From: a virus
DNA length: 45,075 bases
Strand: one strand, 5' to 3'
IMG/VR virus record: IMGVR_UViG_3300020411_000001
Coordinates: 1 to 45,075 of that record
Part shown: in pieces, positions 1,068 to 27,369 of the stretch
Numbering within the stretch: the stretch's first letter is position 1
How the letters are laid out: each line of letters starts with the position of its first letter
The notes under the pieces: model-generated
What the model was told of the DNA's origin: nothing
Database searches by the model: none
Seen by the model: the letters and a program-made list of their open reading frames with translations, nothing else
Program-made: the position numbers and the translations under genes

Positions 1068-1281
1068 AAAAGAGGTACTAGAGGAACTGCATGGTTCGGT
1101 AGCACTTGAGCTACTTCGCAGGATTAGAAGTGGTGAAGCACTCCCTGCTGACATAGCGAACTCCATAAAGTTCCTCAAGGATAACAATATAGAAGGACTA
1201 GCAACTGAAGGGTCACCTCTTGGCAATTTAGTCAATAGTATGCCTTTCCCTTCTCGTGAACAATTACGTGAAATCAATTGA
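1057..1281 (+). CDS. terS: Terminase small subunit (DNA maturase A)
   Basis: The protein is 74 residues. The segment LEELHGSVALELLRRIRSGE followed by PADIANSIKFLKDNNIE resembles the short small-terminase or DNA maturase A proteins of T7-like podoviruses. It would bind concatemeric DNA at the packaging site and hand it to the large subunit. The position fits: lysis genes precede it, and the large terminase follows after a cluster of small genes. It overlaps the preceding gene by 11 bases and the next by 26. T7 gp18 is slightly longer (89 residues). The call rests on recalled family resemblance and position, not on a catalytic motif. Confidence 0.75.
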   Translation: MKAKKEVLEELHGSVALELLRRIRSGEALPADIANSIKFLKDNNIEGLATEGSPLGNLVNSMPFPSREQLREIN

Positions 1282-1714
1282 GTTTGGTAACCCTATAATT
1301 ATTACTCTGGTAGGGTTGGTTGTCTTTTACATTGGTCTAAAGATGTTTGCTGGTGGTATGAAAGCTATGGGCAACATTGAGCACCTACAGTATTTCATGG
1401 GTAATCCTTACTGGATGTTCCTTGGTGGTATTGTGTGTACATTGCTGTGGCAATCTAGTTCACTCAGCACTACTGCTATCGTAGGTTTGGTAGCCAGTGG
1501 TGCCCTACCACTACCATCTGCTATAGCCGCTGTACTAGGTGCTAACATAGGTACCACGGGTACAATCTGGCTTGCAGGACTCATGGTATCCGATGGAATA
1601 CCAACGGGTACAACAAAGCATATAGCACTTGTGCATACAGGTGTGAACGCATTAATGGCAGTTACACTGCTACCCTTTATTCAACCAATAGCTAAATTTA
1701 TATCGAGATTCTAA
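1256..1714 (+). CDS. Na+/Pi-cotransporter-like membrane protein, single repeat
   Basis: This 152-residue, very hydrophobic protein has about four membrane segments. It carries two hallmarks of the type II Na/phosphate cotransporter domain (Na_Pi_cotrans): a QSSS motif at residues 66-69 followed by STTAIVGLVASG, and GANIGTT at 95-101. A later KHIALVHTGVNALM stretch matches the family's conserved His/Asn helix. Cellular members have two such repeats, whereas this has one, so it might act as a homodimer or modify a host transporter. A GTG at 1256 (or 1268) starts it inside the small terminase gene, with a weak ribosome site. Its place between terminase genes is unusual. Transport activity is inferred from family motifs. 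Confidence 0.8.
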   Translation: MNNYVKSIEFGNPIIITLVGLVVFYIGLKMFAGGMKAMGNIEHLQYFMGNPYWMFLGGIVCTLLWQSSSLSTTAIVGLVASGALPLPSAIAAVLGANIGTTGTIWLAGLMVSDGIPTGTTKHIALVHTGVNALMAVTLLPFIQPIAKFISRF

Positions 1715-2605: not shown

Positions 2606-4279
2606 ATGGAAACGATAGTAGATGACCTAAGAGACTTCCGTAACTTTCTTTTTGTCGTGTGGTCCCATTTAAACCTTCCAGAGCCTACTCCAGTACAGTA
2701 TGATATGGCTGAATATCTTCAGTCGGATGAAAAACGTATTGTTATAGAGGCATTTCGTGGTGCAGGGAAATCTTACATTACCTCTGCTTACGCATGTCAC
2801 CAATTATACCTCAACCCTGAAGTTAAAATACTCGTAGTATCTGCAAGTAAGATAAGAGCAGATGACTTCAGCACCTTTACTATGCGGCTTATTCAGGAGA
2901 TGCCGCTTCTTCAACATCTCATTCCTAGAGACAACCAGCGTCAATCTAAGATTAGCTTTGACGTTGGTCCTGCCAAAGCATCTCACAGTCCTTCTGTGAA
3001 GTCTGCTGGTATTACTGGTCAGTTGGCTGGTAGTCGTGCAGACTTGATTATTGCAGATGACATAGAGATACCTAATAACTCCATGACACAAACTATGAGA
3101 GACAAGATAGCAGAAGCTGTTAAAGAGTTTGATGCTGTCTTGAAACCTGATGGTCGTGTAGTCTATCTAGGTACACCACAGACTGAAATGAGTTTGTATG
3201 AAGTATTACCTGAACGTGGATACAAAGTTAAAATATGGCCCGCTAGATACCCAAAGGATACTATTAAGTACAATGGTAGACTAGCGGATACGTTAGTTAG
3301 ACAGGTAGACACTGATCCTACCATAGTCGGACAACCTACTGACCCACAACGCTTCGGAGACCATGATCTCTTAGAACGTGAGTTGTCCTATGGTAGATCA
3401 GGGTTTAGTCTACAGTTTATGCTAGACACGAGTTTAAGTGATGCCAATAGATACCCACTTAAACTTGAGGATTTGATTGTAATGGATGTGGATAGTGAAA
3501 AGGGACCAGAGAAGATTATTTGGGGAAGAGATAAGGATAAGATTGTTGACATTCCTAATGTCGGTCTTCCTGGTGACTTTTATTATAAGCCCTTGGATAC
3601 TGTTGGAGATTACATTGATTACACGGGTTCTCTCCTGGCTATAGACCCTAGTGGTCGTGGTCAAGACGAGACAGCATACGCTGTAGTTAAGATGCTGAAT
3701 GGTTATCTTTATGTCGTAGACTTTGGTGGCATAGAAGGTGGTTATGGAGAACGTGTACTAAAGACCATAAGCATGATTGCGAAGCAGCATAAGGTAAACT
3801 ATGTACTTTTGGAATCTAACTTTGGTGATGGTATGTTCACTGAGTTGCTTAAACCTGTGTTGACTAAGGTTCACCCTGTGACGATAGAAGAAGTCAGACA
3901 CAACATCCAGAAAGAAAAAAGGATTATTGATGTCTTAGAACCTGTGATGAATCAGCATAAGCTGGTGATCGACAGGAAAGCACTTGAGAAAGACTATAGT
4001 TCAGTACAACACTACCCACCAGAAAAGCAACCTAAGTATATGTTAGCTTACCAGATGACTAGGGTAACTAAAGAACGTGGGGCTTTAGCACATGACGACA
4101 GACTGGATGTGTTGTCTATGGCAGTAGCATACTGGGTAGAACAAATGTCTGCTGATGTAGATCGTGAGATGAAGACAAGGAAAGATGAGTTACTAGATAA
4201 GGAACTTGAGATATTCATGCAGAATGCCATTAGTGTAAATAAGTTTACTGAAGTAGAACCTAGATGGTTTAGTATATAA
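2606..4279 (+). CDS. terL: Terminase large subunit (DNA maturase B, T7 gp19-like)
   Basis: This 557-residue protein has a packaging ATPase domain with Walker A FRGAGKSY (residues 50-57) and Walker B DLIIADDIE (146-154). A C-terminal RNase-H-fold nuclease follows, with acidic residues in AIDPSGRG (Asp347), LLESNFGDG (Glu403) and HDDRLD (Asp497/498/501). It would pump DNA into the prohead through the portal and cut the concatemer. The length is close to T7 gp19 (586). It is the last gene before the long non-coding region, exactly as in T7, which supports placing the physical genome ends downstream. Confidence 0.97.
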   Translation: METIVDDLRDFRNFLFVVWSHLNLPEPTPVQYDMAEYLQSDEKRIVIEAFRGAGKSYITSAYACHQLYLNPEVKILVVSASKIRADDFSTFTMRLIQEMPLLQHLIPRDNQRQSKISFDVGPAKASHSPSVKSAGITGQLAGSRADLIIADDIEIPNNSMTQTMRDKIAEAVKEFDAVLKPDGRVVYLGTPQTEMSLYEVLPERGYKVKIWPARYPKDTIKYNGRLADTLVRQVDTDPTIVGQPTDPQRFGDHDLLERELSYGRSGFSLQFMLDTSLSDANRYPLKLEDLIVMDVDSEKGPEKIIWGRDKDKIVDIPNVGLPGDFYYKPLDTVGDYIDYTGSLLAIDPSGRGQDETAYAVVKMLNGYLYVVDFGGIEGGYGERVLKTISMIAKQHKVNYVLLESNFGDGMFTELLKPVLTKVHPVTIEEVRHNIQKEKRIIDVLEPVMNQHKLVIDRKALEKDYSSVQHYPPEKQPKYMLAYQMTRVTKERGALAHDDRLDVLSMAVAYWVEQMSADVDREMKTRKDELLDKELEIFMQNAISVNKFTEVEPRWFSI

Positions 4280-25476: not shown

Positions 25477-27369
25477 ATGTCTGACAAATACCTCAAAAGA
25501 CCCATAGAAAACCAACCACAACGTAAAACATTTTCTATTATACCTCTTGAAGATAGATTGGATTTGGAACGTGCCCATTATGGACAAAGAGGGCACACAC
25601 CTACAAAAGAAGGTGCTCGTGAAGCTCTTAGAAGATTAGAAGAAATTTACGTTGAGCAGGGAGGAGGTAGTAATATTGTAGACCACCCCACTGCTAATTG
25701 GGAAGATACTATTAATGCCTCACGTAATATAAGAAATACAGTACCTACCGAAAAATCCAAACTATCACCAAAATTAGGTAAAGTACCTGATGCTATGCTA
25801 AAAGCGTTCCAGAGAAAAACTGGATATTTGTTTAGAGCATTAAGAGGTGGTAGTGGTATTGGTTTACTTTTTGATCCTTTGGTCCAAGAAGGTATGAAAA
25901 TGAAAGAAGATTTTGATCTTAGGGCTATGATTGTTTCTGCTTATGCACTTAAAAACCCAAAAGGTGCATGGGACAATAAAGGGGAACTAATCGACTTTCT
26001 ACTAGACAACAAAGATACACTAGAGAATTTAAAAAGAACAGATCAACAAGCCTATGAAGCTGCTTTGTACGGCTATATTACAGATTGGCAAAAGTTAAAT
26101 CAATACGACATGTTACCAGAGCAACTTGAGGCTCTGCATCAGCAAGACCTTTGGGACTACTTGGGATCTCCTAGTCAACTATCTTCCCATCCTAACTTGC
26201 AAGGTCCGTCTGTAGTTATGGATTTAGACTGGGGGCTACCTAAGTTTGTAGCACATGGATCAAAAGGAATGGCTCCGATCACAGAATTTACACAACAAAG
26301 AAAGCAATGGAATGATGGTCCTGGACAAGAGTTTGGTGCAGGGTTTTTTGGTACATCAGGACAAGCATTAGATATTACATCCAGATTAAGATCAGAGTTT
26401 GATCCTGTTAGTGGTGAACCCACAGAGGCTGAAGGGTATGTGCTACCTGGAGTTAAAGGTGTAAGGAACGAAGTAGCCAGAGCAAAGGCAAGAGAAGCTC
26501 AAGGTGCCACGAGCACTACGGGTCAAGGTGGTATACAGAGAGAAGGGAGATCAGCAGAAGGAACAAAACCATTTGCAGGAGTAGTACGAGGAAAGCAGAT
26601 TGATCCTAAGTATTACATGGGTGTCCTAGATATAAAAAATCCTATGATTGTATATGGAGATGTAGGGTGGTGGACCCCTTCTAATATTTTAGCATACATG
26701 GCTAATGACCAAGAGTTTGTAGCACCTCAAACATATCATGATGATCATGTTGGAATTAATGTTTTCATGGGACCACGAGAAAATCTTTTAGCTAAAGCTA
26801 ATCCTTCCTTTACTTACTCATCACAAAAAAGCGACCCTTCAGGAAAAGGGCCAGATTTTTCCGTACTAAATGACAAGTATAAAATACCAGACTCTCAACA
26901 AAGTGAATACGGATCTGGAACTGTACTAGAAATGTTACTTGAGTATGCCCAGGTACATGCAAAAAAAGATGGACAAACTTTACTAAGATCAGAACTAAAA
27001 GGAAAAGAAGAATCTGGATTATCAGAAGAAGACTTGTTTTATCTACAACAAGCTGGAGGAGATGATCTTGACCTTGATGCAATGGCTGATCAAATTTTAG
27101 ATGAGAATAAAGATGAAGAAGAAGAACGATTTAATTACTATATGAATTTAGCGTTAAAAGACTTCTTCCTAAATGATCTAGGTTACGATGGTATACAATT
27201 CTTCAACTCAGTAGAAGACAAACAACAAGGAGACTGGTCTTATATTATATTAGACGGTTCTCAGTTTAAAAACATAATGCAGAGAAAACCTACAGGAACA
27301 GGATACTCTAAAGACGATAAACGTCACATGTCTAAAAGAAACACAGATAGATTCAAAAAGGTAGCATGA
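25477..27369 (+). CDS. Putative ADP-ribosyltransferase-like protein, possible virion effector
   Basis: This 630-residue protein sits between capsid and tail tubular A, where T7 has no large gene. The N-terminal 250 residues are helical and unrecognised. From residue 255 there is a pattern typical of phage ART/polyvalent domains: FVAHGSKG (His260, Gly261), ITEF, GAGFFGTSGQALD (289-298), YMGVLDIKNPMIV (380-392), LGYDGIQFF (568-576) and YIILDGSQFKNI (589-600). A long acidic insert (470-555) separates the last parts. It has no ribosome site beyond the terminator T-run. If packaged it could act like T4 Alt, modifying host proteins at entry. The fold call is inference. Confidence 0.6.
   Translation: MSDKYLKRPIENQPQRKTFSIIPLEDRLDLERAHYGQRGHTPTKEGAREALRRLEEIYVEQGGGSNIVDHPTANWEDTINASRNIRNTVPTEKSKLSPKLGKVPDAMLKAFQRKTGYLFRALRGGSGIGLLFDPLVQEGMKMKEDFDLRAMIVSAYALKNPKGAWDNKGELIDFLLDNKDTLENLKRTDQQAYEAALYGYITDWQKLNQYDMLPEQLEALHQQDLWDYLGSPSQLSSHPNLQGPSVVMDLDWGLPKFVAHGSKGMAPITEFTQQRKQWNDGPGQEFGAGFFGTSGQALDITSRLRSEFDPVSGEPTEAEGYVLPGVKGVRNEVARAKAREAQGATSTTGQGGIQREGRSAEGTKPFAGVVRGKQIDPKYYMGVLDIKNPMIVYGDVGWWTPSNILAYMANDQEFVAPQTYHDDHVGINVFMGPRENLLAKANPSFTYSSQKSDPSGKGPDFSVLNDKYKIPDSQQSEYGSGTVLEMLLEYAQVHAKKDGQTLLRSELKGKEESGLSEEDLFYLQQAGGDDLDLDAMADQILDENKDEEEERFNYYMNLALKDFFLNDLGYDGIQFFNSVEDKQQGDWSYIILDGSQFKNIMQRKPTGTGYSKDDKRHMSKRNTDRFKKVA

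Follow-up and report, generated by a model that had tools for sequence, protein, structure and literature searches.

The window analysed here is a 45,075-nucleotide stretch of viral DNA (positions 1 to 45,075 of IMG/VR record IMGVR_UViG_3300020411_000001), and the named genes discussed below lie on its plus strand. The window edge cuts a small membrane protein, of which the C-terminal part remains (1–138); by sequence it belongs to group c9 and is identical over most of its length to the C terminus of the c9 protein encoded at 1929–2261 of a related locus (L002). No PHROGs holin family matched this product, which we regard as a candidate holin. It is followed by an endolysin of the peptidase M15_3 family (301–759), identified by profile matches, and by the small terminase subunit TerS (1057–1281; Pfam PF11123), which overlaps the start of the gene that is our subject, encoding a single-repeat Na/Pi-cotransporter-like protein (1268–1714). 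Downstream lie a possible 52-aa ORF (1716–1874), a DUF6321 protein (PF19846; 1871–2143), a 110-aa ORF (2248–2580), and the large terminase subunit TerL of the T7 type (2606–4279), assigned by profile matches and terminase comparison. The initial annotation had placed the transporter gene between the two terminase genes; TerS and TerL do flank it, but TerL is not directly adjacent, the DUF6321 gene and the ORFs intervening. The phage is marine and T7-like. The nearest relatives of its TerL are found in roseophages (65%) and pelagiphages (about 60%), which makes an alphaproteobacterial host likely. In CRP-125 and HTVC021P, isolates with near terminases, the annotated stretches name no PF02690-type gene beside TerL, and tblastn found no close match to the transporter in any phage isolate. 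Elsewhere in the window (25477–27369), a 630-aa protein without a Pfam, PHROGs, or PADLOC match is encoded right after the major capsid gene; to our knowledge, a gene of this kind is unusual at that place in T7-like phages.

The open reading frame with the PF02690 match extends from a GTG at 1256 to 1714 (plus strand, 152 codons). The 152-residue protein originally proposed is therefore present as a frame, but relatives point to a shorter product: in L003 there is an in-frame stop at codon 4, and in L004–L006 a stop stands immediately before codon 5, which is itself GTG or TTG. Because of these stops, the real, conserved start is most likely the GTG at 1268, giving 148 aa, and the window has this short start only. 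Three of these relatives, L004 (at 1560–1994), L005, and L006, have a gene for an Hsp20 small heat-shock protein inserted after TerS and ahead of the transporter gene. The two motifs singled out earlier, QSSS (residues 66–69 in the numbering of the 152-codon frame; 1451–1462) and GANIGTT (residues 95–101; 1538–1558), both lie in the frame.

Membership of the Na/Pi cotransporter family, which had been proposed from these motifs, is upheld by profile search. The Pfam profile PF02690 (Na_Pi_cotrans) matches the protein over one stretch with E = 3.5e-16 and 59.9 bits, well above the curated cut-off of 29.1, and hence this is not a chance motif match; QSSS and the GxNIGT motif are both present. When only viral sequences are used to build the profile, zebrafish SLC34A2 is recovered with E = 7e-19 and an alignment to each of its two repeats; in 24 two-repeat NptA-type proteins, some cellular and some from contigs, this profile likewise aligns twice, to distinct regions. 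The scores fall below every NCBIfam cut-off (NF037997, 47.5 of 50 bits; TIGR00704, 49.2 of 210; TIGR01013, 37.5 of 306) because half of the profile is missing. PHROGs gave no family for the protein at E ≤ 0.1, holin families included, and PADLOC gave no match. The two inverted repeats in one chain that mark NaPi-II and NptA proteins are absent, there being one matched stretch in 148 aa and one match per virus record, and intact cellular members have two repeats, as the initial annotation had stated. The window gene codes for a single repeat of NaPi-II (SLC34/NptA) type and is no fragment; the repeat is probably a whole unit of that fold.

Structure prediction yields an order of elements compatible with one such repeat. 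The AF2 monomer model (51-row alignment; pLDDT 85.1, pTM 0.73) has a predicted transmembrane helix 1 (residues 13–37; 1292–1366), a predicted re-entrant hairpin with QSSS at its tip (residues 51–65 and 68–80; 1406–1495), a predicted transmembrane helix 2 carrying GANIGTT (residues 86–111; 1511–1588), and a predicted transmembrane helix 3 that contains H127 and N131 (residues 119–150; 1610–1705). The same order of elements has been modelled for one NaPi-II repeat (PMC6325988), and the predicted topology fits a single repeat in having an odd number of spans, three, as half of an inverted repeat needs. Some rows of the alignment were segments taken from the first or second repeat of two-repeat proteins encoded on IMG/VR contigs, and because homologous repeats are thus mixed in, the model serves as a consistency check and not as independent proof. 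A model from 20 viral rows alone was discarded (pLDDT 62.9). A Foldseek search of the better model against PDB and BFVD returned nothing significant from a library that may lack the NaPi-II entries (the 9z60 series, matched by sequence).

Equivalent site residues were located by transferring human numbering to the viral protein by offset from QSSS, an offset checked on the zebrafish alignment and not on the human sequence. The Na3 site of hNaPi-IIa comprises Q417, S418, S419, T451, and T454 (PMC6325988). Among 105 unique viral cores, in which QSSS is kept in 104–105, the equivalent Q66 is present in 104, and S67, S68, T100, and T103, the last two in and near GANIGTT, are present in all 105. 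D113, the equivalent of D209, is D in 100 of the 105 and E in 4, and N131, the equivalent of N227, is kept in 104. Three NaPi-II residues are lost, S447 being replaced by A96, T200 by W105, and D224 by T128. With the Na3 equivalents kept and these three lost, the ion-binding element near QSSS appears intact and part of the electrogenic NaPi-II machinery appears to be gone; the loss of the D224 equivalent argues against an electrogenic 3 Na+ mode.

Conservation among phages is extensive. A scan of IMG/VR with the viral alignment recovered at least 560 relatives, carried by T7-like, T4-like, and other phages, and the relatives inspected are single-repeat. Most of the first 80 loci listed share little with the window beyond the transporter, and the terminase and lysis genes of the window are jointly present, among those 80, only in L001–L008 and L012. 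Profile search of genome contigs yielded two loci only, both on MAG contigs with IMG/VR-like gene content. Each of 30 virus records, with sizes up to 177 kb, holds exactly one PF02690 gene, so that a transporter split into two genes, with the other half encoded at a distance, is rejected. A loose DNA pattern for two-repeat proteins matched only 12 IMG/VR contigs, and two of these, L170 (63% identity) and L177 (36%), again encode single-repeat proteins; in L177, a T4-like contig, the gene adjoins one for a phosphoribosyltransferase. The cellular survey for single-repeat forms covered Bacteroidota and Chloroflexota, and in these 239 genomes all intact cellular PF02690 matches lie in ORFs of two-repeat length (355–721 aa). 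Specifically, PF02690 occurs in 47 of 118 Bacteroidota genomes, in ORFs of 370–715 aa that come in twos or fours per genome, the exceptions being a viral contig and one interrupted 252-aa frame, and in 23 of 121 Chloroflexota genomes, in ORFs of 355–721 aa save for a 165-aa viral contig. With respect to the cells sampled in these two phyla, the half-size gene is virus-restricted, a putative auxiliary gene. Matches in INPHARED (about 33–41% identity; Listeria, Staphylococcus, and faecal) come from unannotated records, three of which, on inspection, were marked UNVERIFIED; they are probably host DNA rather than phage genes of the half-size kind, because the two ORFs inspected are two-repeat and of NptA length, one with a confirmed PhoU domain.

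The viral gene is under strong purifying selection where this can be measured, with dN/dS of 0.03–0.11 against relatives whose synonymous change is unsaturated. Between the window and L007, dS is 0.48 for the transporter gene and about 2.8 for TerL, and the gene precedes the endolysin in L007 whereas it follows TerS in the window; it therefore moves between phages as cargo. A single-repeat tree built on 54 rows and 103 columns resolves three groups: cellular repeat 1 (support 96/84), cellular repeat 2 (99/95), and the viral sequences (99/95). The viral lineage is therefore not a recent half of any sampled NptA; the tree is unrooted, short, and long-branched, and is silent on whether the viral lineage split off before or after the duplication.

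How could half of a transporter work? NaPi-II models place the ions and phosphate between two repeats of opposite orientation (PMC6325988). Since the site lies between inverted repeats and the viral protein has one repeat and no second gene, an antiparallel self-dimer would be needed; the homodimer envisaged in the initial annotation should thus, if it forms, have dual topology, a point that annotation did not make. Given the AF2 topology, the K/R bias of the short form is −3 to 0 over 104 unique sequences (−1 in the window), a near-neutral balance that would allow insertion in both orientations. The long form found in many T4-like relatives has a K/R-rich N terminus and a bias mostly of +2 to +8, and would tend to insert in a single orientation if the short form were not produced as well. 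Most of these long-form relatives have a Met at position 8 after a Shine–Dalgarno-like stretch. Predicted anti-SD pairing at Met8 averages −5.52 kcal/mol versus −3.71 kcal/mol for synonymous randomisations (55 distinct sequences), an effect present in both N-terminal families separately, with z-scores that overstate the evidence because the sequences are related. As controls, Met30 and Met38 deviate in the opposite direction, Met54 gives no signal, and at Met35 the effect has the sign seen at Met8 but is small. Where ACA or ACT stands in place of the Met8 ATG, as in L011, L032, L034, L049, and further relatives, a TTG one codon earlier is preceded by AGGAGC, a strong Shine–Dalgarno-like stretch. 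An internal start giving a short, uncharged N terminus is apparently kept by selection in many T4-like relatives. In L009, L014, L028, L047, L084–L137, and similar T4-like relatives, one internal start, with a Shine–Dalgarno stretch that looks selected, seems to be common to the long and short forms.

The explanation that we favour, and to which we give about an even chance, is that the gene encodes a virus-restricted single NaPi-II repeat acting as an antiparallel dimer in Na+/Pi import for phage DNA synthesis. Two copies would pair with one N terminus in and the other out and so restore the inverted-repeat core, for which cells use a single fused polypeptide. Such a dimer would move inorganic phosphate (or a related anion) together with Na+ through the inner membrane of the host during infection, and the imported phosphate would feed phage DNA synthesis. 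The profile matches to both cellular repeats, the kept Na3 equivalents, the purifying selection, the single copy per record, and the near-neutral short form speak for this proposal; the lack of a significant Foldseek match, the three altered site residues, the frequent location of the gene in lysis cassettes, the charged long N termini of T4-like relatives, and the scarcity of other phosphate genes in carrier records speak against it. Within this proposal, we infer the antiparallel dimer, the Na+ coupling, the phosphate substrate, the direction of import, and the benefit to the phage.

Gene neighbourhoods bear on this role. The gene had been described as far from other metabolic genes, which is true of the window; in relatives, however, it often stands beside genes for ribonucleotide reductase, phosphoribosyltransferases, OMP decarboxylase, a GMP-reductase-like enzyme, a PnrA-like nucleoside-binding protein, or an ammonium transporter. 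Isocitrate lyase, a protein resembling class II tRNA synthetases, and ribosomal protein S21 are also among the products of adjacent or nearby genes. On a short MAG contig (L083, 85–2885), genes for an ammonium transporter, a PnrA-like nucleoside-binding protein, and the half-size Na/Pi protein are consecutive, likely a phage nutrient-uptake cassette. Near the transporter gene of L056 (3919–5052), a 377-aa protein without a Pfam match has, by eye, permease-like hydrophobicity. NifU/IscU-like genes lie near the transporter gene in L012, L023, and L024, with an IscA/ErpA-like Fe-S gene also in L012; PMC9038755 reports iscU, erpA, and PF02690 genes in HMO-2011-type phages. The metabolic neighbours in relatives fit nutrient and nucleotide supply, and by profile it is Na/Pi symporters that come closest among characterised proteins, both of which weigh against the unlikely alternative that the antiparallel half-unit architecture is retained for another substrate or for phosphate export. 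In favour of that alternative are the changed equivalents of S447, T200, and D224, the inclusion among cellular relatives of YjbB, whose E. coli K-12 annotation is that of a putative phosphate exporter, and the genomic context: in 30 carrier records a PstS-type protein (PF12849) was found in none and PhoH in one. Amt was likewise found in none of the 30. With PstS-type proteins and PhoH so scarce, no wider phosphate programme backs phosphate as the substrate.

It is unlikely that the protein is no transporter by itself but a half-unit that inserts into, pairs with, or blocks the two-repeat NptA of the host or some other target in the membrane, and so changes the host's phosphate uptake or keeps other phages out. 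A lone repeat cannot form the modelled substrate site (PMC6325988), the gene is present in a single copy per virus record, and some site residues are changed, all as such a modulator would have it. However, a mere binding partner would not need the residues aligned with the Na3 site, which are almost invariant; the carrier phages are very diverse; and a PF02690 partner is lacking in 71 of 118 Bacteroidota and 98 of 121 Chloroflexota genomes, although the sampled genomes may not be real hosts.

A lysis function, in which a holin, antiholin, or spanin-like protein has borrowed the transporter fold and dual starts time its action on the membrane as in lambda S, seems quite improbable. The gene does lie directly before the M15 endolysin in L007, L008, and L012, between a PHROGs holin and the endolysin in L170, and next to a lysozyme-like gene in L052, L055, and L060, and the two starts of T4-like relatives differ in N-terminal charge. 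Yet L170 has that holin of its own, a different small membrane protein is encoded ahead of the endolysin in the window, and many T4-like phages place the gene by nucleotide or nutrient genes; we also know of no holins that need strictly conserved ion-site residues. Finally, although the gene is half the length of cellular homologues, a functionless captured fragment of a host two-repeat transporter or an assembly artefact is refuted, and a frameshifted or truncated host gene ruled out, by its conservation (at least 560 viral relatives, dN/dS 0.03–0.11), by the separation of the viral clade from both cellular repeats, and by its presence, whole, in many records with differing surrounding gene order.

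For most inverted-repeat folds, we know of no single-repeat relative. Inverted-repeat transporters are thought to derive from small dual-topology proteins by duplication and fusion (see also PMC6805155). We tentatively propose, as a possibility short of the favoured explanation in likelihood, that a living single-repeat lineage survives in viruses apart from both cellular repeats, that it works as an antiparallel homodimer of the kind proposed for the pre-duplication ancestor, and that in many T4-like relatives the two starts would make both halves, a long positive form with its N terminus in and a short neutral form capable of N-out insertion. A half-size NaPi-II homologue in hundreds of marine phage genomes would make the duplication-fusion step directly testable, and would do so in a fold of phosphate transporters to which human proteins (SLC34) also belong.

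Compared with the NaPi-II/SLC34 and bacterial NptA proteins (PF02690, TIGR00704, NF037997), the viral protein shares the fold of the repeat unit as judged by sequence, the QSSS and GxNIGT motifs, and the residues aligned with the Na3 site, but it has one repeat in 148 aa, without a PhoU domain, whereas they have two repeats in about 355–720 aa. A PF02690 gene was described in 2022 in eight HMO-2011-type viral genomes and, as here, proposed to aid phosphate uptake during infection (PMC9038755). Those genes are likewise phage-borne, but they belong to another podovirus group, the window phage being T7-like; we found no discussion there of repeat number, of restriction to viruses, or of how a dimer would be built, and those proteins may or may not be single-repeat. 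A phage-borne PF02690 gene is thus already known, whereas we found no report of the single-repeat architecture or the virus restriction in the open-licence literature searched. The cyanophage phosphate genes pstS and phoH have the purpose that we propose for the half-size transporter but act by another mechanism, and the half-size gene points to a possible further route of phosphate acquisition in marine phages. Closest in the proposed architecture are the EmrE/SMR and Fluc proteins, which are small antiparallel dimers with weak K/R bias (PMC6805155, PMC3755343), as the viral unit would be; they have another fold, and the viral protein differs from them in its predicted re-entrant hairpin and in a dual topology that is, for now, proposed.
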